Source of the DNA: Conoideocrella luteorostrata
Lineage: Eukaryota; Ascomycota; Sordariomycetes; Hypocreales; Clavicipitaceae
Direction of reading: 5' to 3'
NCBI GenBank assembly: GCA_032433595.1
Contig: JASWJB010000054.1
Span: 108,498 to 172,497, forward strand
Length of the DNA stretch: 64,000 nucleotides
Shown piece by piece: positions 3,837 to 36,950 of the stretch (the stretch's first letter is position 1; every line of letters starts with the position of its first letter). The translations under genes and the position numbers were made by a program. The notes beneath the pieces were generated by a model. The model had not been told where the DNA came from, did not search any database, and worked only from the letters and a program-made list of their open reading frames with translations.

Positions 3837-4031
3837 TGTTGGAATGCCGCCAAGCACAATAGGAAGCACAGAGCCCGTCACGTGGTCACCTTCAAGCCAC
3901 GATATTTATACGGCGATATCGTGCCTTCCACTATGACTTCTTTTCTTCTTCTTAGATAGACCCGACTATTATTAATATATTGCATTTGAAGCCGATGATC
4001 TAGATCATTGCACAACCCTGTGCAACCCACA
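3837..4031 (+). mobile_element. solo LTR, family 1 copy 1
   Basis: A 195-bp element that begins TGTTGGAATGCCGCC and ends GTGCAACCCACA. It is flanked by the perfect 5-bp target duplication TGAAG (3832-3836 and 4032-4036). It is closely similar to copies at 26011, 27077 and 34043. Each contains CACGTGGTCACC, a TATTTATAC box and GATCTAGATCAT. The 5'-TG...CA-3' ends, the length and the 5-bp duplication fit a solo LTR, probably of a Copia-type retrotransposon. No internal retrotransposon sequence remains. Confidence 0.88.
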
Positions 4032-4968
4032 TGAAGATTCTGTGTGTAGAAATCACCTCCAAATCATTAAACCTGACATACGGGGAACAATTTATGTGAA
4101 CACTTTTGCAGCGTAGTTGGTACGTCGTGAAGGGTCACGTGAATTGTCTCTCCGTCAATTCATGCGGCTACTGGCTCAAAGAACTATAATTTATGTAGTA
4201 TTATTGCATGCGGGAAAGCCGCCCAAAAGGGTGGTATGGCGTAATATCTTAAGGTGTGGTGGCACAAAACTTGAAGTACGGTCGGTGACTGCCTAAAAGG
4301 GTTCCGTGCTGTTTTAAATAGTGAATTTCTTTCACAAATATTTTAATGAAAACGTTTGATAGAGTAGCTCATTTAATCTCATTACATGGTATATGTTGTT
4401 AATGCGAGTTCTCATCTCGTTGATCATACGGAAGCGAAAAATACGAGCATGTGTCTCAGGGCTGCCCGCGACGCGGCACTATCTTATTCGCTCCTAACAG
4501 GGTTTCACGATTATCATTTAACCTGGTTTGGATGTTTCCGAATGGCAGATGACTTCTCGTTATCTGGTACTAGTGCGCTCTGCAGCTTCTCATTGGGCTG
4601 GGTTTGCCATTGTCTGCATGTCGGCTAGGAATTTCTCGCCCCCAATCTCACCAGTCCACAGCTACAGTGGGGACTGGTGATTCCGACTTTTGTCGTGTAG
4701 ACTTGTCATACAAAAGGGCTTTTTTGAATGGATTTGCCATACAAAGAGTTTCGGAATTACGGAGAACCCACCGTAGATAGTAATTTACCCAAGTGCAACG
4801 CCGAGGTCCGTCCCAAGTCCCCCCCCAAGCTACCCCTCCTGCCTCTCCCCGCACTCTACTCCCACGGTTGTATTTTCTAATTGCTCGCGTCTCCAAGTAC
4901 CACTCAATCCCCCCCAAAAAGCGGGATAGCATCATGCTGCCATCAGTGAATCCGGAGATATAGTTATA
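4032..4968. other. intergenic, promoter side of the bZIP-ankyrin gene
   Basis: No supported gene. An 80-residue open frame at 4386-4628 has no recognisable features. The last 200 bp are C-rich on the coding strand and probably hold the promoter of the gene that starts at 4969. Confidence 0.4.
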
Positions 4969-5976
4969 ATGTCCACCAGTATTCGTGATAATCCGAAACT
5001 GGATACAGATCAGTTGCGAACCGACCCGAAATCGAGACGACGAATCCAGAATAGAAATGCACAGCGAAACACACGTAAGTCTCCATGATACATGTCCTTC
5101 TCAGGGTTATCTTGAGGGTCTCAATTGACTTCATGAGGTGCAGGCTTGAGAAGAGCTGTGGAAAAGCAAAAGGCGTCTGCAGCTCAAGCCCAGCAGACGA
5201 ACTGCCGTTGCTGCTGTCCACATCAGATCTCTGCAGTAGAAAGCGAAGACGTTTCGGCGTCGCTAGTACCGAAAGCTGGCTTGAACGCTCAAGAAACAGT
5301 CCTGCCGACTCCAAAAACAGTGAAGTCGCCGCACGAACCGCAGACAATGGCGATGAACGTGATGGGTGATCCCGGCTTTTTCGTGGAGATGTTTGGTTCG
5401 CCGACGGCCAATCTGCGCCATGGCTTCTCTAGAAGTCCAAGTGACTACCTGAGTCTCAATGTGGCTTTAGAGTCTTCTGATGAGGACGTCTCGCCGACCT
5501 TACCCGATTCTCACCCAAGAACTTTTGAAGAAACTCGACGATCCTCCGAGGCGAGTGCGAACCAAGATGTAAACGCCAATTCATCTTCCAACGACGAGTG
5601 GAGTCTGTCGAACGAATACCTCCCTGCGGACTCAATTAATGGAGCACCTAACCCCCGCGACCAGTCCAAAAAACCAGGATTCACTCAGAGAAAGACGCCT
5701 CTGCATGCGTCCGCATTGTCGGGAAACTACACTATTCTCCAGATGCTGCTTCGAAGGGGAGCCAAGGTCAACGCGACGGATGACACTGGTCGTACTGCTT
5801 TGCACTATGGCGTTGAAATGGGACATGCTGACGTTGTCAGAGTCTTGTTAGAACATAAAGCAGACGCTGGGATTGTGGACAATCAAGGGCTCAGTGCGAT
5901 GCATTTAGCCGTTGTGAATAACCAAGAGACGGTTGTAGTGCTTTTACTCGAACTCGGCGTTAGCCCTGATGTTTAA
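4969..5976 (+). CDS. TOXE-like bZIP-basic/ankyrin (bANK) transcription regulator
   Basis: Two exons, 4969-5074 and 5144-5976, with a 69-bp intron, encode 312 residues. Residues about 22-46 are a bZIP basic region (KSRRRIQNRNAQRNTRLRR) that is split by the intron. No leucine-heptad zipper follows; the next stretch is Gln/Ala-rich and then holds a Cys cluster (NCRCCC). The C-terminus from about residue 220 is three ankyrin repeats (TPLHASALSG, TALHYGVEMGH, SAMHLAVVNN). A basic region without a zipper plus C-terminal ankyrin repeats is the architecture of TOXE of the HC-toxin cluster and its apicidin-cluster relative, both pathway-specific regulators. It sits at the edge of the UstY cluster, which makes it the best candidate for the cluster's activator. 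Function is inferred. Confidence 0.85.
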
Positions 5977-6635
5977 GAGTTCGTATGAGGCGTCTCGTTG
6001 CAACCATTTAGCATACATGCAGTACAGAACGTCGCAGACCGCTCATGAGACGACTGGAGTGATCCGTGACACCAGAGTGGTGATGAGAAGTGTTTCTCGT
6101 TTTCGCTGATATCTATCTGCCGGTTAGGTCCCGTTGTGTGACCGTACTTAGCCCTAAACCATCCGCTTCTCTCCGCCGTGCTTTTCCTTTTCGTTCGCAA
6201 GTATAATTTCGTCACTCCCCACAGTCACTAACCGGCTTATTGTATCATTGGTCAGCACAGCCAATCTCAGCAAAGGATCTCTGCGAAGGGAAGACCAAAT
6301 TGAAACAAAGTTATTTGGCCGAGCTATAGGAATCGATATACCTAACATTGTGAATAATGAATAAATTCTTTTTTCTTCTATTTATAACCGTGCGAACTAC
6401 GTGATACGGAGTGAAGTTGAAAAAAAAAACACAAACAGTCCCATCCACCTTCCCAACCATTACCGTGGAGTGCTGGCAACGGAGCCTCTCCGTACCCCCG
6501 TATAGCAGCCTTGAAAATGTCTCGTGCGGCATTTTTCTTTCAACGAAGCCGTAGGGTTACTTATTATCGTGTATTTTTTGCCAGGTACGATGAAACATAA
6601 TCGCACGTTGCCACCGGTATCGCCCCACAGTCTTG
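5977..6635. other. intergenic, no gene seen
   Basis: Spacer between the regulator and the promoter repeats of the first UstY gene. Short open frames only. Confidence 0.4.
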
Positions 6636-6715
6636 TGATGACATTGCTGACAAGCCTTGATGACATTGCTGACAAGCCTTGATGACCCTCTGCTGTCAGC
6701 AGCTTCAACGCTGAC
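6636..6715. promoter_or_regulatory. GCTGAC-site cluster upstream of UstY gene A
   Basis: Four copies of GCTGAC or its complement occur at 6646, 6668, 6695 and 6710. The first two sit in a perfect 22-bp tandem duplication (6636-6657 and 6658-6679, unit TGATGACATTGCTGACAAGC plus CT). The cluster lies about 160-230 bp before the ATG of the UstY gene at 6873. The same hexamer clusters in the other UstY promoters, so it is a candidate binding site of the cluster regulator. Confidence 0.55.
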
Positions 6716-6872
6716 GTTGCACACGAGTGCGGCCAATAGAGAGTCAACATAGCATAATAGCCCTATCAGGATCTATTCCCAACAATAGTGACGCTTTTAG
6801 GCTTGAAAGTAAATTTACCATCGTTTTATACTTTCGGTTACAGACTTATTTCACTGCCGTGCTTTTACTACA

Positions 6873-7496
6873 ATGCGTCATTGCTACGCTATCTCTGGAA
6901 GTCACGTAGATGAAACACCACTAGACGGAGAAATCTCCGAAACATCACAAAGAAAATGTCTTGGTCAACCATGGTTAGCCAAGCTGACTCATATTGCCAT
7001 ATGGATTGCTTTATTTTTCGCCGCTTCTCTCATCTTATCAACATGGCATTCATGGTATTCGTTTGATCCAGCAACCAAATCACAGTGCGGTAGCTCTCCA
7101 TCTGAAGCTAGAGACGCTGGCTGTCACTTTGATATCATGTCTTCCACATGGTCTCGCTCCGAATGCTTCGACCGGGAACTCATGGACGAATTTTTGTCCA
7201 TAAAGAATTGGACCTGGTGGCTGGATGCAAACGGTACTCAAGGAATTGCATTGCCAAAGGTCGCTTTGGGAGAGCACAGAACTCTGTTCGTGACATGGGA
7301 GTATCACCTATTTCACTGCATATACATGTGGAAGAAAATGCATCGCGCGTTATTAAAGAATGCATCACTAGACTCTTACATCCTAGATCTAGAGCATACT
7401 TCACACTGTGGGCGGATGCTCCTCGATCACAAGTCGCAGTTGCATGAGAGGAATACAGTTATAGTTACCAAGTATCCGAAGTGTATCACACATTGA
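6873..7496 (+). CDS. UstYa-family (DUF3328) protein, divergent subfamily (UstY-A)
   Basis: A single-exon frame of 207 residues. A short cytoplasmic N-terminus is followed by one membrane anchor at about residues 38-60 (HIAIWIALFFAASLIL). The outer part carries SEARDAGCHFDIMS, ECFDRELMDEF and two HxxHC motifs, in EYHLFHCIYMWKK and HTSHCGRML. UstYa-family proteins are membrane-anchored oxidases that use two HxxHC motifs, probably to bind metal, and form ether or C-C crosslinks on peptide cores (family knowledge). This one belongs to a shorter, clearly divergent subgroup and lacks the HxCRDF segment found in the others. It lies between the bZIP-ankyrin regulator and the candidate precursor, with a GCTGAC-rich promoter. 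Confidence 0.82.
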   Translation: MRHCYAISGSHVDETPLDGEISETSQRKCLGQPWLAKLTHIAIWIALFFAASLILSTWHSWYSFDPATKSQCGSSPSEARDAGCHFDIMSSTWSRSECFDRELMDEFLSIKNWTWWLDANGTQGIALPKVALGEHRTLFVTWEYHLFHCIYMWKKMHRALLKNASLDSYILDLEHTSHCGRMLLDHKSQLHERNTVIVTKYPKCITH

Positions 7497-8245
7497 TCAA
7501 AACGCAGTCTACCAAAACTTTTCAAGGAATTGTTGTACGGATATTCTCGAGGGCTAGGATATGTAGCACACATTAATTCGAATGCTCCGTAGCAACATAA
7601 ATTGGAATCGAAGAATTGCATACTTTGTAGCCCAACACCTTACGTACCTGATGACATCATTAATGACAGGTAACTACCGCATAGTTCTTCAAGGGTACTA
7701 CACCAAACCAGTAATTATACGAATCTTCTAATATACTAGATAACATAGATGTGGTGCTTTCCAGCGCTTGACGGATAATTGAATGAATGGTCCAACATTT
7801 TTTCAATTGTTAATCAGAAGTATACAATTATAAATCTCTTTACAAGCATGGAGGGCAGTTGAGCCGCTCTCGATAAGAGCTAACTCATGGGAACACAAAT
7901 TGATAGATCCTTCCGGCTACTCCATAAGGGAATAATCTCATATGGGTACAGAACTACTATGTTCAAATTCAGGGTAACTCTCCTCATAGTTCGTATGCGA
8001 GAGCCGGCATACATTATGAATGGGTAAACATAACGTGCACATATACGTCTAGAGTAATTGGGCGCACTTATTTTGTCCAACATTGGGCAATCAAATATTT
8101 ATTTAGACGAAATACTAAGGAGTGTAATTTGGATCTCGTCATTGTAAGAGTTTAGATGGACTGCAACAAATAGCAAAAGTTGAACCAGTCCTCTCGTCTT
8201 GCCCTTAGGATGCATAGTACTCCGCGTTGCGGAATTCCATGTCTC
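7497..8245. other. intergenic, AT-rich, no gene seen
   Basis: Lies between UstY-A and the 3' end of the precursor gene, which reads from the other strand. No frame with family motifs was seen on either strand. Confidence 0.45.
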
Positions 8246-8488
8246 TTAGATTGCATCCGTACTTTCAGTGTCTCTCTTGATGATCGACCAGCCTTTATAG
8301 AGAGCTTCCGAGATTCCGTCAACAGTCGCACCATCCGGCTCCGCAAGATGATCATGTGCTCCGTGTGCTAGACATGTAGTTAGGATTAAAGATGTAAGAA
8401 ATTTTGGTATGTCTATGAACCACTCACGAGTAGGAGCGGCAATTGCAAAAGCGGCGAAAAAGCCGATGGAAATGATGGAGAATTTCAT
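8246..8488 (-). CDS. candidate RiPP precursor peptide with one Kex2 site
   Basis: Two exons on the minus strand, 8488-8428 and 8367-8246. The 60-bp intron has GTGAGT, a CCTAACTAC branch site and a TAG acceptor. The product is 60 residues. Residues 1-18 form a signal peptide (MKFSIISIGFFAAFAIAA). An acidic, His-containing leader follows, then YKGWSII directly before Lys51-Arg52 and an acidic tail (DTESTDAI). In ustiloxin and phomopsin precursors the core peptide lies next to Kex2 KR sites and contains a Tyr that UstY proteins crosslink. YKGWSII fits that position, but only one copy is present. The gene lies between UstY-A and UstY-B and shares a promoter region with UstY-B. The precursor role is inferred from context, size and the KR site, not from homology. 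It could instead be an unrelated small secreted peptide. Confidence 0.6.
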   Translation of the reverse strand: MKFSIISIGFFAAFAIAAPTREWFIDIPKFLTSLILTTCLAHGAHDHLAEPDGATVDGISEALYKGWSIIKRDTESTDAI

Positions 8489-8658
8489 AATGGCTGGATG
8501 TTAAACTCTGTGGCTTATAATGTGTAAGTTTGATAAGATGTTTGCTTGCTGGAAGATTCAGAGTGAAAAGAAGGAGTATTAAGAGTATTTTATGAACAAA
8601 GCCTTATGAAGCATAGTATCGATGGCGGCAGCGAAAGAAGACTGACGGTGACACTGAT

Positions 8659-8679
8659 GCTGACACATATGCGGTCAGC
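8659..8679. promoter_or_regulatory. GCTGAC/GTCAGC pair between precursor and UstY-B
   Basis: GCTGACA at 8659-8665 and GTCAGC at 8674-8679 face each other in the 283-bp region between the divergent precursor (start 8488) and UstY-B (start 8772). An ACTGACGG lies just upstream at 8641. Confidence 0.5.
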
Positions 8680-8771
8680 ACATATATCAACTCTGTCTGG
8701 TCGGTCTACGCACGGATGTGGGCCTCGAGTACCAAGTTTTTTGTGTAATATGCTGCCTAGTTGTTTTCAAC

Positions 8772-9868
8772 ATGGTAAATCCTACAATGTCTCATACAAT
8801 TCAACCCACAGCCATTCCTATTGCCCCGCCACTGAACATGGAGAAGAACAGGAAAGACCATAGAGCGTCCTTTTATTCGGAAGATGACCAAAATGGAGCT
8901 GAAAGCGACGAACTGCTAGCCAAATATGACTCGCCTACAACCTTCGCTCCTCATCGCAGAGCACTAATACACTTACTGACCTTATACGTCGCCAATATCG
9001 TATCTCTCATGGTAATCATCGTGATGTGGAGTACGAGGTCAACGGGGTTGCGTGATCCAACTCTCAATATCTATTGTTAGTCAACACTCCGACTCCACTC
9101 CGATTTCGGTTTTATTAACGCTATTGAACAGCCCCAGCAAGTGAAGCAGTCGAATATATCGGTGCTCTGCATTTCCGCGCCGCCTTGTTCAATTATACCG
9201 AGTACATGGGTTATCCGACCGCGGATGGAAGAACAGACGAGCTATGGAGCAATCTCTATAATTGTAAGGCGTTTTGTACATGTAATGCCGATTATGTCAC
9301 TCACAATTTGTCCACAGTTGGTATTTCCAAGATCACGAAAGAGCAGGCAGCGAAGTTGCACACTCCAACTCTTGCCATCCCAGACACTGAGGACTATTTG
9401 ATCGAGCTCGATGTATGGCATGAGCTTCACTGTCTCAACGACCTCCGGAAAGTGCTGTATCCGGAAGTATATGGCGGCCTTCAGGAAGTGACGTGGCCAA
9501 ATGGCACCATCAACCGCGAGACTGATGCCTTTCGCCATTGGGATCATTGTATTGACTCTCTTAGACAGACAATTATGTGTCATGCTGACGTAGCGCCGAT
9601 CCCTTTTCACGTTAACGTTCCTGTCAACAAAGGGATATTCCCGCGGTTAGCCACCACTCATACATGCCGCAATTTCGAGCGGATACAGCAGTGGGCGCGA
9701 GATCACTGGGCTGGAGAGTGGGATTTCAAACTGAATCCGGACAAGGCCGCGGAGATCATTGCTGCTAGTGGATTTGACAATGCTCCAGAAGAAGATATAG
9801 AGTTTCTTTGGCGGGATTTTCCTGAGAACAAATTCTTCAAACACTGGCGTGAGAATTTTGTAAACTAG
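8772..9868 (+). CDS. UstYa-family (DUF3328) oxidase (UstY-B)
   Basis: Three exons, 8772-9075, 9132-9263 and 9318-9868 (introns 56 and 54 bp), give 328 residues. An alternative ATG at 8838 in good context gives 306. One membrane anchor is visible in exon 1 (HLLTLYVANIVSLMVIIVMW). The outer domain carries ALFNYTEYMGYPTADGRTDE, then LDVWHELHCLNDLRKVLYPE with the first HxxHC, HWDHCIDSLRQTIMC with the second, and HTCRNFERIQQWARDHW. All hallmark residues of UstYa-type crosslinking oxidases are intact, so it is expected to be active. It is a likely partner in cyclising the peptide encoded by the divergent small gene. Confidence 0.9.
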
Positions 9869-10277
9869 TTATTCTACCTTTTTCCTGGAAACATGTTAGT
9901 AACAATTAAGGTATTGAAATTGGCTGTATGCCGTAGATACGGGGCTGAACTAAGCAAATTTGATTCCAACGTAAGGGCCGCACGACCAAAATGTAATTTT
10001 CAGCATCATTCAAATGCTCTTGCGCAGCAAATAATATATCATGTGCAGCGAAAAAATTATATTATTCTTTTAGTATTACTGTCGACACGATTGCTAATCC
10101 ACAAGCATCTGAGCGGGTCAAAAAAGAGAAAACAAAAACTATATAACCCTGCTATCGCGATACACTGCATCAAGGCCTCCTAATAGTTTTGCTAGATGTA
10201 CGGGATACTGTGGCATGTCTATTGTTTTGTTGGAAATTCGGGACCCTCGAGGTCGTCTTGCCTGGAAATAGAGTATT
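9869..10277. other. intergenic, 3' ends of UstY-B and UstY-C
   Basis: Convergent spacer, AT-rich. The 96-residue frame at 9893-10183 has no features and is probably chance. Confidence 0.5.
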
Positions 10278-11178
10278 CTATGCTATCTCATCTCCATGCA
10301 CCCCCACGTCAGCATGAGTCTTGAACCAACCATTTACTGCTTTGAACTCCTTTGACATTCTGTGTACATTAGCGTCGGATGGAGCTTTCAAATTGACGAA
10401 GTTGACGACATCCACAGCGTTCTTGTCATGCCAAGCTTTAATAGCATCAAAGTCTCGACATTTGTGCTCTACGCTGAAGTCGGGAAAAGGATGCTCAAAC
10501 GCATCAGTCCATATGTGGGTATAGACGTCGGTGCTGGCTTGGCACAATATCCCTTGCAGAAGATACTCGATACAGTGGCTCAGGTGTAGTTTGTGCATGT
10601 CCGTGGTCTGATTTAGTCCACCGGGGTAGGTTGACCCATAGTAGTGTTCAAAATATGCATCGCGGCGCAAGCTGTCCAGACAGTGGATCTGATGAAAGAC
10701 TTCTAGCCGCCCTGCATAGACGTCAGAGCCAGTTCCAAACTTCTCGGGAAATTTAACAGCATCCTGAGGGTCCTTTCCGATAGCTTCGACCTCATCGCGG
10801 GTCAATGGGATAAGTCGAAGATCACCTAGCCGGTCCCATGCTAGATCGACTGCATGACTGGGAGCCTGGCGATATATACTTGGCGATGAACCGAGAAGTA
10901 GATTTGTATTCCCAAGTTTATTAGATAGTTTTATGTCAATCGATGTGAGTAGTGGTGCTAAGAAAGGTTGTTAGCATTACCCTGTTAAAGCCAGCTTCGA
11001 GTTTCAGCCTACATGCAGCGGAGACCTGTCGAAGAGCCCCATTTCTCGTCCAAAGTTGCCCCCTATTCAAATATACAGAAACAGTAAGACATATTAGGGA
11101 CGCAAATAGTATTAGGGCATTCCAAAAAGTCCACGTTTTCTTAGATGCAACAGACTGGTCCAATAATGTAGTGGGCAT
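10278..11178 (-). CDS. UstYa-family (DUF3328) oxidase (UstY-C)
   Basis: Two exons on the minus strand, 11178-11013 and 10957-10278, with a 55-bp intron (GTAGGC...CTTAG, branch GCTAACA). They give 281 residues starting at MPTTLLDQ. The frame continues upstream to 11256 but without an ATG. The membrane anchor is at about residues 16-38 (WNALILFASLICLTVSVYL). Then come SPSIYRQAPS, VDLAWDRLG, RLIPLTRDEVEAIGKDP, LEVFHQIHCLDSLRRDAYFE with the first HxxHC, HLSHCIEYLLQGILC with the second, TDVYTHIWTDAFEHPFPDFS and HKCRDFDAIKAWHD. This is a textbook UstYa-family sequence with every motif intact. It is the paralogue most like the inactive-looking UstY-G at its C-terminus. Confidence 0.92.
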
Positions 11179-11356
11179 GACACTAATTCCGAAGGGACTT
11201 TGGAGTCGGATTGGCTGGCTAGATTTGATAGAGTGCTTAATCTGTGAGGATAGCACATTGAACAGGTATCTAAAAACTGAATGCGTTTATGTTTTGGTAG
11301 CACTCAGTGAGTGTGGCTGTGTAGAAGCTACTCCAAATTTCGGCAAAGATGGCCAT

Positions 11357-11373
11357 GTCAGCAACGTGTCAGC
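11357..11373. promoter_or_regulatory. paired TGTCAGCA sites upstream of UstY-C
   Basis: Two GTCAGC hexamers at 11357 and 11368, spaced 11 bp apart in the same orientation and both inside GTCAGCA. They lie about 180-195 bp before the UstY-C start codon. Confidence 0.5.
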
Positions 11374-11849
11374 ATTCATGCAGGCGATGGGGAGCACATG
11401 GAGTCGATGCAAATCAGCAGTCATACTATCTTTTGGACCCGCATGCATCGACATTCTGTTCGGGAGCCCATTTTCAATCACTTCTATCACTTAGGACACG
11501 ACGAATAAGTTACTCATTCAGCCTTCTCCGCCAAATCAACGGTATGTCGAAATTCTTCACTATTTGACTTTATTTGACTAGCTGATGATACTAAAGAAAA
11601 GACAGCTTTAAGTTTTCTGGCTAATCCTGGAAACAGATTTAGGGATTGTAAGTTTATGAATTGGAAATAGAACACTGCAGCATTCAAAGCCGGAATAGTC
11701 CGGTATCAGCTTCGTATGAAATCGTAGCCTACTGTTAAATTATGGTATTAGAGGTATAATATAAACATTTGTTCGGATACCAAAGTTTCACGATGCACGT
11801 CCACCTAAATCGGAGCTATGTCATATTATCGGGTGCTCTTTCAGCATAA

Positions 11850-12601
11850 CTACAGAATTTGTTTTTGGGACAACCTGGATACAGTATCTCCAGGCTCAAC
11901 GTTTGACACAGTAAGAGGCTTTGTGGAAGAATCTTCTACTATCGATCTTATCCTCCCAGAATCTCCGCAATAGTGGATTGAACCCGCTCCATCAATAATT
12001 GGCTTTCCGGTCTTGCTGCGCCTGCTCGACATTTCGACCGTGTCGTCAGCCGCACAAACTACGGCCTTATTATATTATCAGTTAGCGTCCTGATTTGCTG
12101 GATGAATATATTAGAAAAACACACCTGAGAAAGATAATCAATGCAGTGCATTAGGTGATCTGGATCATGAATCTGCTGAGCACTGTGATTGCCGATGATA
12201 CTTCGTAAAGCGTCGAGACAGTGGAGTTGATGATACATCGAGATCCCATACCGCTCATAGTGCTCACCATGCTGCGACAAGACGTGCATATAAGGACTGA
12301 CTTTTGTGAGATACAAGGCTTCATCATACAGGGAAAATTCGAATCCAAAATCCGGCCTCGAGTTGTGTGGAGCATTGATGACGCGAGCTTGAGACCTCAT
12401 GGTACTATGTTGACGGCCAACAGCAAGAGACTTGGAAGTTTTTCGGATGGAATTAATTTGGCAGTCGTTATACATCCGACCTCCTAGGAAGTTGTAAAGC
12501 CACAGTCCGCTTAGAAGAACTGGCGGGACGCAGACCAGCCCAAAGACTAAGCGTCGGCGGCGCCAGTTCGACTGTCGCCCGATATTGTCCGAGTCCATCA
12601 T
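11850..12601 (-). CDS. UstYa-family (DUF3328) oxidase (UstY-D)
   Basis: Two exons on the minus strand, 12601-12125 and 12065-11850, with a 59-bp intron (GTGTGT...ATAAG, branch GCTAACTGA). They encode 230 residues. The acceptor was chosen because it restores the family segment CIDYLSQAVVCAADDTVE. A basic stretch (NWRRRRLVFG) precedes one membrane anchor (LVCVPPVLLSGLWLYNFLGG). The motifs are SMYHQLHCLDALRSIIG with the first HxxHC and HLMHCIDYLSQ with the second, and a C-terminal GSIHYCGDSGRIRSIVED in place of the usual HxCRDF segment. The region between anchor and first motif is shorter than in the paralogues. It is predicted to be an active crosslinking oxidase of the cluster. Confidence 0.88.
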
Positions 12602-12820
12602 TCTGTTTTATATAACAGGTATAATAATGATTCAAGTACAAGTGTATAGTCTTCACCTGGTGAGCAAACTGAGGGCCAGCGAGTCGGCGTCTCAGTCGCG
12701 GGGGCGGATCGTTGTAAGGGAGAACGGCAGGGCCTGATTATGCCGCCTATGGGTACGTTGGATACGGCTGTCGTACGCATTCTATGTACCGGGGTGGAGG
12801 CTGTTCAAAGAATGCAGCTT

Positions 12821-12856
12821 GCTGACTGTCATCACAAGTGTTGTGGGTTGCTGACA
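12821..12856. promoter_or_regulatory. paired GCTGAC sites between UstY-D and UstY-E
   Basis: GCTGAC at 12821-12826 and GCTGACA at 12850-12856, same orientation, in the region shared by the divergent UstY-D (start 12601) and UstY-E (start 13051). Confidence 0.5.
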
Positions 12857-13050
12857 TCTCTCGCTGAGTATGTGGGGGCGACGGATGACGGTACTGAGCG
12901 TATGACTCTACACAATTTTAGCTCACTCGGATCCGTTCAACCAAATTATTGGCTGGACACATATTGCTGGCTCGTCCCTCTCACAATCCCAAAGTATTAC
13001 TGTAAGGCTGCCAGCTTATTCCTGATATTTATCGCCTCACAAGTACTAGA

Positions 13051-13769
13051 ATGTCGTTGGAATCAGGCAAATATTCTTCACTACGGGGGGATGACAGCGA
13101 TGATGGTATTGTTGGTATTCGACCGAGAGCATCATGGTTCAAAATTCCTGCCCTGAGCATCATACTGGGATGCTTATGCTTGCTTCAGTCTTCCGTTCTG
13201 TTCTGGATGATAACACAACAAAATGTGTCCAGCCACGTAGTATTTAATGACGAGGCCCCATTTGGAACTGCTGTAACAGAAGAGGAAGTTGAGCATGCAT
13301 GGAGCGTTTACAGTCTGCGTGAGTAGGCCTCTCGTGCACTTCGACGAAAAAATATGTATTCAATGGTATGATAGGGCTGACAGAGTAAACTCCGACAGCA
13401 AATGCAGGGTTTGTGAGCATTCATAAACCTGAGGATCTGGGACTGAAGCCAAATCAAAATGTCGTATCAGGCGTTGATAATGTGTACATGATCTCGGCAA
13501 TGCACCAGCTACATTGTTTGAAGCAACTGCATACGACATTAGTGAGAGGCGACAGCGCATTCAACGCCACGACAGAGCGTAAGCATATACTCCACTGTTT
13601 GAATTACCTAAGGCAAGGTATTTTATGCTCGGCTGATGGTACATTGGAGGGGCCGGATGATCACCCTGAACTGACTCACAGCCCGCTCAGTGGATGGGGA
13701 GTTCTTCATCAGTGCCGGTCGTGGAAGGATTTGATGGAGTTCAGGGATAGCCATTCCATTTCTCGGTAG
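13051..13769 (+). CDS. UstYa-family (DUF3328) oxidase (UstY-E)
   Basis: Two exons, 13051-13318 and 13399-13769, with an 80-bp intron, encode 212 residues. The frame starts at MSLESGKYSSL. A membrane anchor follows (IPALSIILGCLCLLQSSVLF). Exon 1 ends in EEEVEHAWSVYSL, and the join gives PNAGFVSIHKPEDLGL, a typical UstYa stretch. Then come MHQLHCLKQLHTTLV with the first HxxHC, KHILHCLNYLRQGILCSAD with the second, and GVLHQCRSWKDLMEF. It is one of the shorter members but has all key residues. It is divergent from UstY-D across a promoter with two GCTGAC sites, and convergent with the TPR-like gene downstream. Confidence 0.9.
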
Positions 13770-13935
13770 TGTCGTGATACATAAACAATGATGTACTTCA
13801 CGGTAACCCGTGCGACTCGTTGATTCTAGTGAACAAACGGAGTTGCCAAACTTAAGTGATAATGAATGCCACATGTCAACCATCCTTCGATGCCTTTAGA
13901 TTTGTGTATGTTTGAGCTTCTCGATCCATATTGAG

Positions 13936-14667
13936 TCACACATGTACTGCATCTTCTCCCTTCTCCAACTTCTCGGTGAGTTCGCGTAGCATTTCGCGCT
14001 CTTCTTCCTGATACTTGGCGAATTTGCTGCATCCCATTCCTTCAATTAAAGCAGAAGTTTCTTCAGCGAGCCGCCTTGCCTCGTCCTCCTTGGCCCCTCC
14101 CTGCTTCCACATACTTGCAATGATGGTCCTTGTCGTCCCCAAAGCCTGTGGGGAATCCGGGCCACACTTCTCGTGTGTCTGCATCACTGGTAAGACCTCG
14201 CGTGCCGCGGCTTCCGCAGAGGCGAAGTTGCCGCTACGTAGACTCAGACCCGACATCATGTTAAGCCAAGAGTATTGAATCCTCCCTTCGGTAGTGGCAA
14301 TCAACTTGGATATGGTCTCCTCCTCGTCCTTAGGACGATCAAGGAACTGCTGGATAGTGGCGATGCCAAGCAGCAGGTTGATCCAAGTGCGCGAGTCGGC
14401 AACGTGAAGTTGTTGGGGGGCCACTGCGACCTCACGGGCTGAGAGAGTGGATTGGAGTTCGGAGAGCAGGTAGAGCAGCCGGTCATGGACGCAAAGTGAG
14501 CCGTCAAGCTTCATCCTCTCGATATCCTGGGGCTGGTAACAAGTAAGAAAGTTGCGTGCGACTGTAAACTCCATATCTTTCCAGAATGGTGTGTCAGGAA
14601 CATCGAAATCCCACTCAAACTTGGGCTCCTGCGAAGTAGCTGGCGGTTTCACGTCTGCCGTGGACAT
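13936..14667 (-). CDS. TPR-like protein of unknown function
   Basis: A single-exon frame of 243 residues from the ATG at 14667; the frame is open a little further upstream but without an ATG. No signal peptide or membrane segment is seen. The middle and C-terminal parts are helical and Ala/Leu-rich with spaced motifs such as SWLNMMSGLSLRSGNFASAE, GTTRTIIASMWKQGG and DEARRLAEETSALIEGMG. These are reminiscent of degenerate tetratricopeptide repeats as in kinesin-light-chain-like fungal proteins. It lies inside the UstY cluster but its promoter shows no GCTGAC site, so membership is uncertain. I do not recognise a specific function. Confidence 0.65.
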   Translation of the reverse strand: MSTADVKPPATSQEPKFEWDFDVPDTPFWKDMEFTVARNFLTCYQPQDIERMKLDGSLCVHDRLLYLLSELQSTLSAREVAVAPQQLHVADSRTWINLLLGIATIQQFLDRPKDEEETISKLIATTEGRIQYSWLNMMSGLSLRSGNFASAEAAAREVLPVMQTHEKCGPDSPQALGTTRTIIASMWKQGGAKEDEARRLAEETSALIEGMGCSKFAKYQEEEREMLRELTEKLEKGEDAVHV

Positions 14668-15724
14668 TGTGGCGGAACAATGGAGTCTTACTTTTTCAAG
14701 ACCAAACACCCGTAGTAATCTCGGATCGAACGGCACACGCGTATATGCAAATTGATGGTTGGATTGCAACGCACCTCAATTGCGGAGAACGGTGCACAGT
14801 TATGCATCACGGCTGCGGTCAGAAGTCACGTGCGAGTCGTTGTGGTCATGCACCACCGTTGGTCGAGGACTGTCGTTGGTCATTCACAAAACACCGCGTT
14901 GAATTACGTGGAATTCAATTAAATCCCTCAGACACTCGGAAATGCTGATATTCCTTACGAGCCAGCAGAAGCCTCGTTTCTAATCATAACAGAAGAGCTA
15001 AAATTTAGTTGCAAGTCGTGGCGGTTAGCATCAGTGCACAATAGAAGACAAGGTCAAGCCACCTAACCTCTCGTCATCGGATGAATAGAAATACTAAGCA
15101 ACTATTAGGTTCAATGATTTTATGAAAGTCTGATGGAAATCTTGGATCGACGGAATCCAGGACGAAGTGCAGGTATGCATAGCCGTCAAATTCTTTTTCA
15201 AATCAAAGAGAACTTCCTACTGCTAGCAACATGTCAGTTGTAGCTGTTCCTGGTGGTGCAAATCAAAGATGGCTTCCCATTGTAGCAGGGTGTGACGGTC
15301 TATTGCTACTCCCAATGACAATGTCGTCAGTCGTCAAGGTCTGGCATTCGCATGATAACATAGCTCTCGGCTGCAAACGATTTTCTCCTCGGCAGCTATT
15401 AGTAGCTTCCCATCGAGGATTAGTGGACATAAAGTTACCAGACCATGTATTGTATGACATACGCACAACGTACGTGAAATCACGACGCATTCAGAAAGAG
15501 AGGAAAACATAGGCCATAAATTTTGGTCACTATTTCGCTGAAGAATGTCACAAGAAGTATGGGCCCATTTAAAGGTCATAATCACGCGTGACATGTGGGA
15601 CGTCACAAGGCATCCTAAGGATATCACGAACGCTCTGGCGGTTGGAACTAATGAATTGCACGAAGATCATAAGATATCTCTTGTTCTCGCTTAACCTTTA
15701 CATTGACCTCAACGCTTTCATCGT
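14668..15724. other. intergenic, no gene seen
   Basis: About 1 kb between the TPR-like gene and UstY-G. The open frame at 15231-15512 (93 codons) shows no domain or signal peptide and is probably chance. Confidence 0.45.
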
Positions 15725-16682
15725 TCAATAGAAGACCCTTCCACCCCACCACATATCCGTCATCCTGATAGCCTGAACCGCATTGTCCTGAACCCAGCTT
15801 GTCATAGCATCAAAGTCACGGCACTTGTGCTTCGTCGAGAAGTCCAGTGCGCTACCGGGTAACGATTGTCCCTGAACTCTCGTGAGGATTTGCAATATCG
15901 TGCTCAAATCACCCCAGCACATTGCTGCTTCTCGTAAACGATTTAGACACAAGTCTGCTCTATGCATAATGTTCTCATTGGACCCCTTGAAGGCTGGATT
16001 GCTAGAATAGGTGACATTATATCTACGGCGATTAAGATGCTGTCTCAGGAGGTTGACGCAAGCCAGCTCAACATATACTTCAGGGATCGCAAGAAGGTGT
16101 GATTCGTCCCTGGGAACGTGTAAGAAACCTTCATCTAGCGTGATTTTTAGATCCGAAAGCCGTGACTTTGGTATAGCTATTGGGCTCTCTGCGAGATGAT
16201 TAGTCTTGGTTTGGATACGAGCTTGGGCAACTTCGGCACCATTATAATAAACCTCTAGAGCCCAACTCACCCGGCAGGAAAGCTTGCCAATTCTTATCAG
16301 CTTCTTCAATGGGATCACCAAAATAATCCGACTTTGTAAATAATTCTAACCAAGGAAACATCTTCCACTCATAGTCGAGACCCTGCGTGATCGGGGTCCA
16401 CGTCGTCCCGTGCGAACCACAGATGGTGTCATTTAGACTTGGATGCACCGCGCGATAAAAATTAAATGCTGCCAACGAAAAGAAAATAGCGACAAAAGTC
16501 CACGCTAAACCTGATCTCCAGGTCAACAAAACCTGCAATTGAGTCATCAGGCGGACACAGTCGACAGCTAGCGGCACTACGACGCAAAGTTTGAACTGAT
16601 CCGCTGGTCTTTTACAAGGCTCCTGGTATTTGATGTTTTCGCGCTTTTGGACTCTGAAGAACTTAGGGTAGCTCAGTTGCAT
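15725..16682 (-). CDS. UstYa-family protein with lost HxxHC motifs (UstY-G)
   Basis: Two exons on the minus strand, 16682-16271 and 16221-15725, with a 49-bp intron (GTGAGT...CCAAG), give 302 residues. The fold signature is clear. There is a membrane anchor (LAWTFVAIFFSLAAFNFY), then EEADKNWQAFLP, PKSRLSDLKITLDEGFLHV, a position for the first motif, a second, and HKCRDFDAMTSWVQDN. Where the paralogues have HxxHC, this protein has VELACVNLLRQHL, and for the second motif HRADLCLNRLREAAMC. The cysteines remain but the paired histidines are gone. Both frames are intact without stops, so this looks like a maintained but non-catalytic member rather than a decayed gene. A role as partner or scaffold of an active UstY is inference. 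Confidence 0.85.
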
Positions 16683-16718
16683 CGTTTGACTTGATCACGG
16701 TAGTCTAGGTCATGCTGT

Positions 16719-16774
16719 GTCAGCGTCCGTCAGCCCTTGTCAGCCCTTGTCAGCAACTTGTCAGCGACGTCAGC
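16719..16774 (+). promoter_or_regulatory. array of six GTCAGC sites at about 10-bp spacing
   Basis: GTCAGC occurs at 16719, 16729, 16739, 16749, 16760 and 16769, all in the same orientation, with spacings of 10, 10, 10, 11 and 9 bp. The array lies 37 bp upstream of the UstY-G start (16682) and 183 bp upstream of UstY-H (16957), in their shared divergent promoter. One site per DNA turn places all six on one helix face. Confidence 0.7.
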
Positions 16775-16956
16775 AGAGCAAGGCTGTTAGCCGAACAGGC
16801 AATTGTCACGGATTGTTAGCGGATTCTGTGTAGCTGTTCAGCTCTGCATCCGTCCAAAGACGTGTCAAGTCAATTTGTGAGCTAGAAGTCATTGCAAATT
16901 TGACATTTGAGTTCATTTACCACTCGTACATATTCTGTTCTTTACTCTCCGCTGAA

Positions 16957-18023
16957 ATGCTAGGAGCCTTGAAAGGGTGCCAAAGATACTTGCCACTTCC
17001 TTCCGCCAAAAACTTCGAGGATGAGGAACGAATCGCCCTCGAGAAGACACTCTCGGACAGGGAGAGTTGCTCGACTAAGCAAAGCGATGCAGAAACTTGG
17101 GAAAGCTTGGAGTCACCTGATCGACCAAAAAGTATACTAGAAAGATGCCAGATGTGGCTGTTGTTTGTCTCTGTGACGGCGTGCCTTGCTTCTTACATTG
17201 CGGTATTCACAACCCAAAATCAGTTGGAGAAATCGTGTCTGAGATTTATGGAACCTTGGCGTATGCTTGCTCTCATTTGCAAAGTTGGTATCGGATCTAA
17301 TCATTCTGAACAGACCCCTTTCGTCCGTTTGTTACTTACGAAACACGTCGGTTTGATTGGGAAGGGTGTCCGGAAGACTTTTGTGGAGGTGTCCAGCAGG
17401 AAAGATCGAAGAGGTGGGAAGATCTTTGGAACTGTGAGTGCTCTTACCGGAACAGTCGAGCGACTTTGCATTGATTCTAAATCGGATTATTAGACGGTTA
17501 CCCCGCATTCCCGAGAGACAAGGTAAATGAGTTGAACAAAGATCCTGCGGCGGACTGGCTGCATCCGTCGGGGTCTGACAATATAGACAATCTAGTGTCG
17601 TTACCGGAGTGTAAGTCCCGACGCTTGGAGTTGCTACGCAGCCATTCACCCGGCATCCCATCTAACCTAGGCATCATAGTTGCTCATCAGACTCACTGCG
17701 TCAGTCTGATTAGGAAAACTTTGTATGGGGAGGAAGTCTCTCACAGCCTGTCTGAGGAGATTGAAAAAGAGCGACTCTGGTATCATACCAACCACTGCCT
17801 ACTATCGCTGAAGATAATGATTGAATGCAAAGCGGACCCGACACCCGTGTTGTTCAAGGATGCAGGGAAGGATAATAGAATTGGAGCTTGGACATTGGTT
17901 GATGCGCCAAGGCGATGCAAGAACTACGAACCACTCCGCATCGCTCTAAGAGGCTCTGAGAAGATGTGCTCAATTAACTGCAATGCGGCAGAGATTTACG
18001 GCGCGTCGACTACAACAGTTTGA
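16957..18023 (+). CDS. UstYa-family (DUF3328) oxidase (UstY-H)
   Basis: Three exons, 16957-17260, 17314-17433 and 17494-18023 (introns 53 and 60 bp), encode 317 residues. The joins recover family segments absent from the read-through frames: PFVTYETRRFDWEG and ERSKRWEDLWN. The N-terminal cytoplasmic part is about 75 residues and acidic. The membrane anchor is MWLLFVSVTACLASYIAVF. The catalytic motifs are VAHQTHCVSLIRKTLYG and YHTNHCLLSLKIMIEC, both HxxHC, and the C-terminal RRCKNYEPLRIALRG replaces HxCRDF. It is predicted to be an active crosslinking oxidase. It is divergent from UstY-G across the phased GTCAGC array and is the last clear UstY gene. Confidence 0.9.
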
Positions 18024-19186
18024 GATTGCGAGCTGTTGGGTAAGTTTGTTACTTAAACCATCAAGAGTAATAGTGGTAAAATAAGTAGATAATACCACTG
18101 CCCCGTCGCCGTCTCAGTTTTTTGACAGTATCGTAGTCGCCAGCCTAGTGTTACCAGCCTAGTACGTCCTGTGCCCTTTGTATGGACTCTAGGGTGCTGA
18201 ACGAAAAGTACGCGAACATACAAACTTCAATCTCTCGCCGGGTCTCTATCTCGTCGCAATACAGCACGGTCGCAATTGAATCATCTGTCGCAGAAAAAGG
18301 ATAGATAGCGGGTTCCAACTGTGGCCATCTGTGGTTGTGCATTGTAAGAGTTGTGCTGTGTTGCTGGTTGGGGTCACGAACCGCTGGCTCGACGCAGGGT
18401 GCCTAAAGAGGTACCGTTGACAAAGATCATAGCACTGTGCTTATGATGGCCTGTGAATTATGACGTTTGGCATCTTCGAATCGACCCCAACCACCCCAAC
18501 CAGATGAACGATGTTGGGACTTACGAACGATGGGGCTGAGGTTTCATTCCCCGCTACTTCGCATGATGAAAGCGGCTATTGGACGGCAGAAGGGACTCCG
18601 AATAGCCGTCGAGGTGCGCCGTAGCAGTCCCACGTCGGCAGCTCTCGTGGGAAAAAGACGACGATAACGTCGGAGCCGCCGACGCGGGTGTTCAGCCAAT
18701 GCGGCTCGGGTCGTCTCACCGCACAGTTATATGGGCCTTATGATGTCAGCATTCGGCGGCAACTAGTTCTCTTGCATTAGTGGCATGGAACTTTTGAAAG
18801 AATTTGGAAGCGCTATCTACGTAGTGCCGGTGCGTTCATGCAGAGCAGACCAGGACACGGACTAATTGCGAAGCTCGCAGTGTTGTATCAACGCAGCTTC
18901 GGTTTACCGGGTAATGAGTCATGGCCAAGTTGTACAGAGACACCTCGACCGCCGTGATGGTTCAAGTGACGTTGACCAGCTGCACGCGGACGGATTCGGC
19001 CGCATCGGATGCGACCTATAATGACGGCAATGAAATGCAGCGGTGTGATGAATTCTCCAGAGAAGAGTTTTATTTTGCAGGCAGGACATACTATATATCC
19101 ACAGGGCAGCGTCTGCGAGGTGGATGGCTTTCTTACATCGTGACAAAGTCATTCCTCCTCTTCTTCCGTTTCATCGCATCTCCAAC
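18024..19186. other. intergenic, no confident gene
   Basis: About 1.2 kb upstream of the invertase gene. A single GTCAGC (18745-18750) lies 440 bp before its ATG. A 63-residue frame on the minus strand (18151-18342) has no known motif. Confidence 0.4.
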
Positions 19187-21676: not shown

Positions 21677-22228
21677 ATGGCTACTGATCTTGCATTCTCG
21701 GGTCTGAATCTCCTCCAGTGAAGCACATACTAGACGATACTAATAATCGCGCATGTAGACTATCTTGACATCCGCAATTTGACTTTCGAATGGGCCGAAA
21801 GCTATGACAATAAGGACTGGGAAAGTCTGCACAAATGCCTCGCCCCTTCTATCCGCCTTGACTTTCGCAGTCTCCGGGGCGAATTGCACGAGAAGCTATC
21901 CCCCGAGGACTATGTGGTCATTCTTTCTGGCGTAAAGATATTGGGAAACAAGCTTCTCAAGACACAGCATCTGTTGGGAGGGGCGAAATGGGAGTGTTTG
22001 AGCGACGGCGGCGTCAAAGTCGAACATCAGCTTCGGGTGGCACATCAGCGCTATACCAATGATGAGTTTTCGGAGGTTGCTAATAAAGGGCATGGTCATG
22101 GGGCTGTAGCGCTTTGGTACAGAAAATTTGAAGGAATGTGGAAAATCGAAGGCGTCGCGCCAAGACTTGGCTGGTTCGAGTACGACTTATTCGGGACACT
22201 CGATCCAAACGGGGACGAAAGCTCCTAA
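21677..22228 (+). CDS. scytalone dehydratase-like protein with altered active site
   Basis: Two exons, 21677-21701 and 21759-22228, with a 57-bp intron, encode 164 residues. The small first exon supplies the family N-terminus (MATDLAFSDYLDIRN). The SnoaL-like/scytalone dehydratase fold is marked by FEWAESYDNKDWESLHKCL, KTQHLLGGAKWE and VAHQRYT, so the Tyr-Asp pair and both catalytic His positions are kept. From knowledge of the Magnaporthe enzyme, three other active-site positions differ: the Tyr of VDYRS is Phe here (LDFRSL), and the Ser and Asn of the HSAN segment are Gly and Val (GHGHGAVALWY). It is probably a dehydratase or cyclase of another polyketide-like substrate rather than the melanin enzyme. 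No polyketide synthase is in the window. Confidence 0.85.
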
Positions 22229-27481: not shown

Positions 27482-29169
27482 TTAACGAACCAAATTATCC
27501 CTACCATCCATAATAGAATCTCTTCTAGCTTTTTCTTCGAGAAGCAGTCGCACAATAGCATCCCGTTGTTCTTCGTTTTTGTGGAGACGGGTTGTGATCC
27601 TTTGTCCTCCATATGTTTCCGTGTTACCAGAAGCCCATGATAGTACCGTGCGACCACGATTATCTGTTGATTTGATGTCAGCGCACCAATGCAGAAGCAG
27701 CTGCACGACGGCCGCATGTCCTTTCTCAGCAGCATATGACAGGGCCGAACGCTTCGAACGTGTCGTCGAATTTACGTTGACCCCTTCATCCAGAAGCAAT
27801 TGCACAACGTTCGCATGCCCTTCTCGCGCAGCTTGTCTTAGAGCCCTAGCCGAACCCATATTTTCCGAATCATTCTTACCGCCTCTGTCTAGAAGCAGTC
27901 GGACGATTTGCTCATGTCCGTTTCTTGCTGCTTCTCCTAAAGCCATCGACCCCCCATACTCATTAATCTTAGCACCCCTATCGAGAAGCAGTCGAATGAT
28001 TTGCTCATGCCCGTTTCTTGCTGTTGCTTTTAAAGCCGTCGACCCAATCTCAGCACCTCTGTCTAGAAGCAGTCGGGCGGTTTGCTCATGTCCGTTTATT
28101 GCTGCTCCTCCTAAAGCCATCGACCCCCCATACTCATCAATCTTAGCACCCCTATCGAGAAGCAGTCGAATGATTTGCTCATGCCCGTTTCTTGCTGTTG
28201 CTTCTAAAGCCGTCGACCCAATCTCAGCACCTCTGTCTAGAAGCAGTCGGACGGTTTGCTCATGTTCGTTTCTTGCTGCAGCTTCTAAAGCCGTCGACCC
28301 AATCTCAGCACCTCTGTCTAGAAGCAGTCGGACGGTTTGCTCATGTCCGTTTCTTGCTGCAGCTTCTAAAGCCGTGGACCCCCCATACTCATCAATCTTA
28401 GCACCCCTATCTAGAAGCAGTCGGGCGGTTTGCTCATGTCCGTTTCTTGCTGCAGCTTCTAAAGCCGTCATAGACCCACCCCGCTTATTGATGCTGGCGC
28501 TATTATCTAGAAGTAGTTGCACAATATGCTCGTACCCATGTTTGGCAGCGCAGATCAGTGCCGTGTGCCCCGCCCCACATTCTGAATCTATCTCAATGCC
28601 CTTGACGAGAACAAGCCGCACAGTGTCTAGATATCCTCTTTCAGACGCTAGATGCAAAATTGTACGCCCATTGTTGTCCTTGGCAGTCACATGCCCAACA
28701 CTGGAAATAAGTTCGTTCAGCTTTTCACTCTGGCCCTCAGTAGCAGCGCAAAACATAGCTACTTCGAGATCAGAGGTACTATCAATGCTACCCCATTCGA
28801 TAGTGGCGCCGTTTTTATCGAAAATCTCGGTACTCCGATTATGAGTTTCCCTCAAGTGTCGCGTACGGTGATCCCTGCGATGTGTAATGTAATCGCAGTG
28901 CGGCAATGGACAGTGCAGGCTGAATCGCGAGTTTGTATGGGTTCTTTGGTGGCGCTTAAGGTCCGCACTTAGAGCGAAACCTTTATCACAAAGGGAACAT
29001 TTATAAGGACGATCATGTGTTTTTCGATGTCGGCTGGAGTAGAGCAAATTAGCAACGTATATTGCCTGGACATGAGTAGAATAATAGCGCCGTACTTGTA
29101 GTCCATCCGCCTCTCAAACTTCCTTGGGCAATCCTCGCAGCAAAAAGCGTCATTCGATTTTTCATCCAT
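27482..29169 (-). CDS. C2H2 zinc-finger/ankyrin-repeat protein with expanded repeats
   Basis: Two exons on the minus strand, 29169-29096 and 29033-27482, with a 62-bp intron, encode 541 residues. The join completes the first C2H2 finger (CCEDCPRKFERRMDYNRHRK plus TH), with exact C-x2-C-x12-H-x3-H spacing. A second finger follows (CSLCDKGFALSADLKRHQRT plus H) and a third, looser one (CPLPHCDYITHRRDHRTRH). From about residue 125 to the end there are a dozen or more ankyrin repeats. The middle ones (RLLLDRGA...ALEAAARNGHEQ) are nearly identical at DNA level, in unit lengths of about 31 and 27 residues. It is probably a nuclear regulator or an NLR-independent ankyrin sensor. The function is unknown. 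Confidence 0.85.
27900..28480 (-). repeat. near-identical tandem repeats within the ankyrin gene
   Basis: Units of 81 bp (for example 28216 to 28297) alternate with longer units of about 93 bp that carry an extra DEYGG-coding block. Sequence between units is almost unchanged, which indicates recent duplication or gene conversion within the array. Confidence 0.8.
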
Positions 29170-36613: not shown

Positions 36614-36950
36614 TTAGCAGTGAGCGCCGCCCTGGCTGCCTCCGCGGCATGAGGCGCGGTTGCAGTCTTGAATCTCAGTCCATCGGCCACGGAGGCACTG
36701 GACCTATTTGCAGAAAACACATATTAGTAAAAGCAGTCTAGTTACTTGGAGCAGAGAAACTTACTACACCAGTACGGTCGCAACCGCAGAAACGTCGGTC
36801 TCCGTTTGAAGATTGGCAGCCACTGTTTGTACGTCGCTGGTCGGCACCAAAGCCAGCTCCGCAGACGTCTCTGGTCTCCAACTCGGGGACGGCTGAAGCA
36901 GTAACGGCAACAGCAGCCATGAGAGTGCAGAGGATAGCGTTGACCTTCAT
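36614..36950 (-). CDS. small secreted cysteine-rich protein (effector-like)
   Basis: Two exons on the minus strand, 36950-36765 and 36703-36614, with a 61-bp intron (GTAAGT...AATAG), encode 91 residues. The signal peptide is MKVNAILCTLMAAVAVTASA, followed by a short pro-part ending in ETRD. The mature part has eight cysteines in order: DVCGAG, SGCQSS, RFCGCD, VQCLRG, QDCNRA, SCRGG and a final AHC. Four possible disulfides in about 65 residues is typical of fungal effectors and antimicrobial-type proteins, but no named family is recognised. Exon 2 supplies four of the eight cysteines, which supports the splice. Confidence 0.8.

Follow-up and report, generated by a model that had tools for sequence, protein, structure and literature searches.

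Gene content of the locus

We analysed a 64,000-nucleotide window (bases 108,498–172,497 of contig C54, JASWJB010000054.1) of the 46.4-Mb draft genome of Conoideocrella luteorostrata, the source of which is described as a scale-insect pathogen (PMC12352038). Between 4.9 and 18.1 kb of this window lies a gene cluster running in the order regulator, Y1, peptide, Y2, Y3, Y4, Y5, a tetratricopeptide repeat (TPR)-like gene, Y6 and Y7 (Table 1). An original prediction had described Y1–Y7 as seven DUF3328 (UstYa-family) genes accompanied by a bZIP-ankyrin regulator and a 60-residue secreted peptide. Gene models were recovered at all seven positions named for the Y genes (6873, 8772, 10278, 11850, 13051, 15725 and 16957), the ankyrin gene is present at 4969 (Ank_2, E = 1.1e-31), and the putatively secreted 60-residue peptide is encoded by a spliced minus-strand gene with a Lys-Arg (KR) site. 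The TPR-like gene had been overlooked; it is single copy genome-wide and, despite its location within the cluster, probably lies outside the pathway.

All predicted models in this interval have a start and a stop, an open frame and GT-AG introns. Y3 corresponds to the public entry QQS21_003934 and Y7 to QQS21_003936. The public annotation apparently lacks Y2 and Y6, as both were queried and an own entry was returned for Y7 only; the numbering from 003934 to 003936 leaves space for one annotated gene, where four are modelled here.

Table 1 Features of the cluster (positions in the window)
Feature	Position	Strand	Description
Regulator	4969..5976	+	Exons 4969-5074, 5144-5976; 312 aa; basic region, C-terminal ankyrin repeats (bANK-like)
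Three TGCTGACA boxes, Y1 upstream	6645..6701 (6645, 6667, 6694)		Two within a 22-nt tandem duplication
Y1	6873..7496	+	207 aa, 1 exon; Pfam-orphan membrane protein; HLFHC and HTSHC motifs
Putative single-core precursor	8246..8488	-	60 aa; exons 8488-8428, 8367-8246
TGCTGACA box, divergent peptide/Y2 promoter	8658..8665
Y2, UstYa family	8772..9868	+	328 aa, 3 exons; PF11807 E 2.9e-54
Y3, UstYa family	10278..11178	-	281 aa; exons 11178-11013, 10957-10278; PF11807 E 1.4e-54
Two TGCTGACA boxes, Y3 upstream	11356..11374 (11356, 11367)
Y4, UstYa family	11850..12601	-	230 aa; exons 12601-12125, 12065-11850; PF11807 E 2.9e-14 (corrected model)
TGCTGACA box, divergent Y4/Y5 promoter	12849..12856
Y5, UstYa family	13051..13769	+	212 aa, 2 exons; PF11807 E 7.3e-24
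TPR-like gene	13936..14667	-	243 aa; TPR_10 E 0.085 only; no promoter box
Y6, UstYa family by profile	15725..16682	-	291 aa; PF11807 E 5.9e-30; motif histidines gone
Six GCTGAC cores, one perfect TGCTGACA (16748)	16718..16775		Between Y6 and Y7
Y7, UstYa family	16957..18023	+	294 aa, 4 exons; PF11807 E 2.1e-26

UstYa-family proteins of the cluster

Six of the seven proposed DUF3328 genes, Y2–Y7, were confirmed by matches to the Pfam domain UstYa (PF11807; 53.9–185.7 bits; cut-off, 25), whereas Y1 had no Pfam match. Both HxxHC motifs are intact in Y1, Y2, Y3, Y4, Y5 and Y7, in agreement with the predicted number of six. Y6 lacks all four motif histidines and retains the cysteines (V-E-L-A-C and R-A-D-L-C). 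For comparison, 124 of 138 retrieved database proteins carried at least two HxxHC motifs, 10 carried one and 4 carried none. An N-terminal hydrophobic segment is clear in six of the seven Y proteins and borderline in Y6. With 57 PF11807 exon matches in the whole genome, the presence of six PF11807 genes in approximately 9 kb is not due to chance. The Y proteins are only about 24–34% identical where BLAST aligns them, and they therefore look like old, distinct lineages rather than recent copies.

CctR, a DUF3328 enzyme, has been described as a membrane-anchored, dimeric two-copper protein that uses O2 and loses its activity when the motifs are mutated (PMC12435403). The proteins described here resemble CctR and the other cyclochlorotine DUF3328 proteins in the HxxHC(x)nHxxHC arrangement, the N-terminal membrane segment and the two motif helices (PMC12435403); in the predicted structure of Y3 (predicted local distance difference test score, 86.7), the two motifs are located on two helices. 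In contrast, CctR is a homodimer that acts on a non-ribosomal cyclic peptide (PMC12435403), and the present cluster includes Y6, without motif histidines.

The putative precursor and multi-core precursors elsewhere in the genome

The peptide gene contains a single 60-nt intron (GTGAGT..TAG). Its product comprises a hydrophobic signal sequence, predicted with a simple hydropathy script, a short leader, a single stretch with Tyr and Trp (..EALYKGWSII), the KR site and an eight-residue tail, DTESTDAI. No decayed or remnant core copies were seen near the gene.

We read 18 stretches around UstYa matches (L033–L050), located on 15 of the 27 contigs with matches, and 5 of these contain multi-core precursors. 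On C54 (25 kb), YFIG occurs eight times; on C8, ESYLPN or a variant five times; on C76, CYNWI twice; on C532, NNQAGWG nine times; and on C612, HQSYL ten times. The C612 precursor was missed by the KR scan, its units ending in KER, and was recognized on reading of the open reading frames (ORFs); its processing site may therefore differ. In each of the five, the core contains Tyr or Trp and either abuts the basic site or lies no more than a few residues from it. What the window peptide shares with these precursors is the signal sequence together with an aromatic core placed immediately ahead of a basic site, but they contain 2 to 10 cores and the window peptide contains one. In the genes for the window peptide and at C8 and C612, the first exon measures exactly 61 nt and the signal sequence is followed by a phase-1 intron. 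The C54 precursor has a 66-nt first exon and a phase-0 intron, and the C76 and C532 models do not contain the 61-nt/phase-1 arrangement. On the basis of gene structure, this within-genome comparison strengthens the reading of the window peptide as a putative precursor.

These five loci, found in addition to the window, compare with two biosynthetic gene clusters (BGCs) placed in the class ‘Other’, which includes fungal ribosomally synthesized and post-translationally modified peptides (RiPPs), in a published survey of this genome (PMC12352038). One published miner requires repeated stretches in the precursor (PMC11109268).

Several details of these loci were recorded. The stretch about 90 kb to the left of the cluster (L033, C54:19.5–29.5 kb) is a ustiloxin/phomopsin-like locus in which the precursor (EDYFIGADKR, eight units) is accompanied by a UstYa gene and a tyrosinase. 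C76 is a small UstYa locus (L039:3783-4028 and 4580-8604) with the two-core precursor and the closest Y1 paralogue; the precursor tail, TDGCI, resembles the TDAI of the window peptide, and a third, altered core lies beyond the stop in a different frame. At C612 (L040:1554-2119), the ten-core precursor has as neighbours a pair of UstYa genes and a Y1-type gene in which the motif histidines are lost. Finally, a 29-residue match to the signal region of the window peptide (52%, E = 0.01) lies at C35:28126-28212, on a contig without a UstYa match.

Y1 belongs to a Pfam-orphan family found near UstYa genes

A profile of Y1 and four paralogues (five sequences) compared with a 76-sequence UstYa profile revealed no similarity (probability of 4.9), the small profile having weak power. 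Y1-type genes occur at eight sites in the genome, with one further weak match, and 7 of these 9 sites (6 of 8 when the window’s own is excluded) are 0.5–1.6 kb from a PF11807 match. Only 0.36% of the genome is within 2 kb of such a match (binomial P = 2.6e-16 for 7 of 9, with the 2-kb limit fixed after the distances had been seen). Apart from the window, the sites near PF11807 matches are on C76, C612, C532, C363, C300 and C341, and reading around the gene covered the first four of these. Multi-core precursors are present at C76, C612 and C532, and none was recognized at C363. As the C612 copy has lost its motif histidines, we hypothesize that inactive partner proteins may recur. No description of the family was found in our searches of the open-licence literature. 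Y1-type genes could serve as a search handle for single-core precursors, with the 61-nt first exon and phase-1 intron as a second.

A shared promoter element links the Y genes and the peptide

Repeats of GCTGACA were noticed by eye, seven promoter stretches were drawn and all 8-mers were then scored across them. The top-ranked 8-mer, TGCTGACA, has 8 copies in 5 of the 7 stretches, where about 0.17 would be expected; 2 of the 8 copies represent a single tandem duplication. Elsewhere, the 44 kb on the right contain 3 copies, and 196.5 kb from other loci contain 15. The observed P of 1.35e-11 was not reached when seven stretches were drawn at random 600 times (lowest P, 2.0e-11), and in one of these draws any 8-mer was present in five stretches. 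The positive stretches serve Y1, peptide/Y2, Y3, Y4/Y5 and Y6/Y7, while the regulator and the TPR-like gene have no copy in their promoter stretches. There is none in 0–4.9 kb, and an extra copy at 18744 lies between Y7 and a GH32 gene. In linking exactly Y1–Y7 and the peptide, TGCTGACA supports the assignment of these genes to one putative pathway.

The regulator would be the protein that binds this element. Its bZIP_Maf match is weak (E = 0.079, below the cut-off), and the presence of a basic stretch without heptad leucines was judged by eye. In combining ankyrin repeats with a basic stretch at the N-terminus, the protein recalls ToxE and Apf2, the bANK regulators for HC-toxin and apicidin F, a likeness drawn from descriptions of these proteins. 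In the apicidin F cluster, as described, the promoters other than the regulator’s own carry the bANK regulator’s box (PMC4109984), an arrangement that the present locus shares. ToxE and Apf2 differ in regulating non-ribosomal peptide synthetase (NRPS) clusters with the boxes ATCTCNCGNA and TGACGTGA (PMC4109984), in place of TGCTGACA.

Y2, Y3 and Y7 types are neighbours in other fungi

We carried out one database search with Y3 and one jointly with Y2, Y6 and Y7, and sorted the matches by local BLAST. Judged from contigs of identical size, a Y2-type and a Y3-type protein are found on one contig in 11 of 50 cases. The fungi concerned are distant and include Cladobotryum mycophilum, Truncatella angustata, Rhypophila, Podospora fimiseda, Ophiocordyceps sinensis, Hyaloscypha bicolor, Aspergillus sclerotiicarbonarius, Achaetomium macrosporum and Cladosporium. 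The pairs in Cladobotryum, Ophiocordyceps and Cladosporium have consecutive gene numbers. Two database models appear to be joined: P0070, from Xylariales sp. PMI_506, combines a Y2-type with a Y7-type half, and P0022 combines Y3-type and Y4/Y5-like parts. These Y types are therefore neighbours elsewhere too.

The joint search returned one Y7-type relative and no Y6 orthologue. Together with the position of the box-free TPR-like gene between Y1–Y5 and Y6–Y7, this could indicate two adjacent pathways, one formed by Y1–Y5 and the peptide and the other by Y6 and Y7. However, the Y6/Y7 promoter has the same box together with six GCTGAC cores, and the halves joined in P0070 place Y2 and Y7 types side by side in Xylariales sp. 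PMI_506. We consider such a division quite unlikely and treat Y1–Y7 and the peptide as parts of one candidate pathway.

A proposed dikaritin-like pathway

We think it likely that the locus is a dikaritin-like RiPP gene cluster operating as follows. The 60-residue peptide would enter the secretory pathway, where the single core ending in ..EALYKGWSII before KR would be released by Kex2-type cleavage and then trimmed. The core would be oxidized in the lumen by the membrane-anchored HxxHC proteins Y2–Y5 and Y7, perhaps also by Y1. By homology to CctR, a two-copper site and O2 would generate cross-links, double bonds or hydroxyls, with Tyr and Trp as the likeliest positions. Y6, without copper-binding histidines, would probably be a non-catalytic partner subunit. 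The bANK-like regulator would activate the eight genes (Y1–Y7 and the peptide) via the TGCTGACA boxes. Seven related membrane proteins and a secreted peptide thus seem to be co-regulated, and they may yield a heavily modified peptide almost only by copper-enzyme oxidation; if built so, this may be an established type of pathway taken unusually far.

The RiPP assignment made in the original prediction has gained support from the shared promoter element and from the precursor gene structure common to C8 and C612, but the chemistry was overstated. Successive reactions by seven UstY enzymes is too strong a claim, as Y1 is not demonstrably a UstYa protein and Y6 has no motif histidines. In addition, UstYa and UstYb are jointly needed for one step in ustiloxin biosynthesis (PMC6514808), and the reactions may therefore be fewer than the genes. 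More tentatively, we propose as a possibility a RiPP pathway of almost only copper oxidases on a single core, featuring dead-subunit pairing (Y6), Y1 as an unrecognized, Pfam-invisible, UstYa-linked family, and single-core precursors as a blind spot of repeat-based searches. If true, the cluster would show how much UstYa chemistry can achieve on a single short peptide when other enzymes are few or absent. It would also be a compact system, complete with regulator and box, in which to ask why clusters keep many UstYs and whether these act as mixed dimers.

Several observations weigh against this interpretation. A protein search found no relative of the peptide, and when the region was shuffled 60 times, 10 of the copies contained at least one comparable secreted KR-peptide ORF; the real region has two such starts, one lying within Y7. 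Because comparable ORFs arise in shuffles at this rate, the peptide alone is modest evidence. These two points would fit an alternative in which the ORF is fortuitous, or encodes a small secreted protein with no link to the cluster, and the substrate of the UstYs comes from another locus; it could be a non-ribosomal peptide, as it is for the cyclochlorotine DUF3328 proteins. The original prediction had excluded NRPS, polyketide synthase (PKS), methyltransferase, flavin oxygenase and peptidase genes; none was present among the Pfam-scanned proteins of 1–25 kb, where other ORFs were only read, but the statement does not extend to the surroundings, as PKS domains lie 16–19 kb left of the window and would be compatible with a substrate made elsewhere. 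In contrast, the box-bearing divergent promoter common to the peptide and Y2, the 61-nt, phase-1 first exon that the peptide shares with two multi-core precursors and the lack of an NRPS in the scanned parts of 1–25 kb connect the peptide to the cluster, and we regard an external substrate as unlikely.

The degenerate Y6, for which no orthologue was found, and the single core, unlike the usual repeated-core precursor, also count against a working dikaritin-like pathway. Both would be expected of a decaying cluster whose precursor has been reduced to one core, whose Y6 active site has been lost and which makes no product; moreover, repeats raise both precursor transcript and product in ustiloxin biosynthesis (PMC10512285). 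Nevertheless, all models are open and have splice sites, six proteins keep both motifs, five promoter stretches retain boxes and remnant cores were not found nearby, which makes decay very unlikely. The remaining points against a dikaritin-like pathway concern the models, the statistics and the gene content. The Y4 intron has the less usual acceptor AAG, and the promoter stretches were chosen after the repeat had already been noticed. No methyltransferase, transporter or peptidase was seen among the proteins of 1–25 kb covered by a general Pfam scan, which included no search aimed at these families; other ORFs there were only read. There is no tyrosinase in the cluster, the PF00264 matches on C54 being confined to 21.9–22.5 kb, about 90 kb away.

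Comparison with known dikaritin clusters

The dikaritin-like reading draws on features shared with ustiloxin, phomopsin and asperipin-2a, namely a secreted precursor, a Kex2-type site, adjoining DUF3328/UstYa genes and an aromatic core residue. The number of DUF3328 genes is 2 for ustiloxin, 5 for phomopsin and 1 for asperipin-2a, with a mean of 1.7 over 1758 precursors (PMC7329392). Unlike these clusters, the present one combines one core with six UstYa genes and Y1, and the tyrosinase, methyltransferase, transporter and peptidase genes were not seen. The C54 YFIG locus likewise differs in its adjoining tyrosinase. The generalization that known clusters carry methyltransferases, flavin oxygenases or peptidases proved incorrect, as the asperipin-2a cluster is described as a precursor, one UstY homologue, a transporter and a reductase (PMC6514808). 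Within the five-part definition of dikaritins by Ding, as quoted in PMC12048977, the locus has several DUF3328 proteins and lacks repeated cores and a tyrosinase; the other parts, a methyltransferase and a transporter or peptidase, were not seen among the Pfam-scanned proteins of 1–25 kb. A later definition, in which DUF3328 is class-defining and the precursor ribosomal, would include Y2–Y5 and Y7 beside the putative precursor.

Neighbouring genes

A nitroreductase gene is located near the cluster, at 1296–2276 of the window. Further left are PKS acyltransferase and carrier domains (L031:1143-3614) and an FrsA-like hydrolase (L032:9151 to window 398, reaching the window start), which we take to be Ayg1-like. 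Scytalone dehydratase lies to the right (21734–22225). The cluster is thus flanked by PKS domains, an FrsA-like hydrolase and a scytalone dehydratase, as though it lay among melanin-type genes.

Three other ORFs were recorded. An ADP-ribosyltransferase-like ORF with Scabin-like and Pertussis_S1 matches lies on the minus strand at L032:5672-7474 (about C54:104.2–106.0 kb). At 27482–29113 of the window (minus strand), an ankyrin ORF has near-identical 81- and 174-base tandem repeats, with zinc-finger-like residues in front of them as judged by eye. At 36614–36950 on the minus strand lies a candidate gene, possibly with an intron, for a small cysteine-rich secreted protein.

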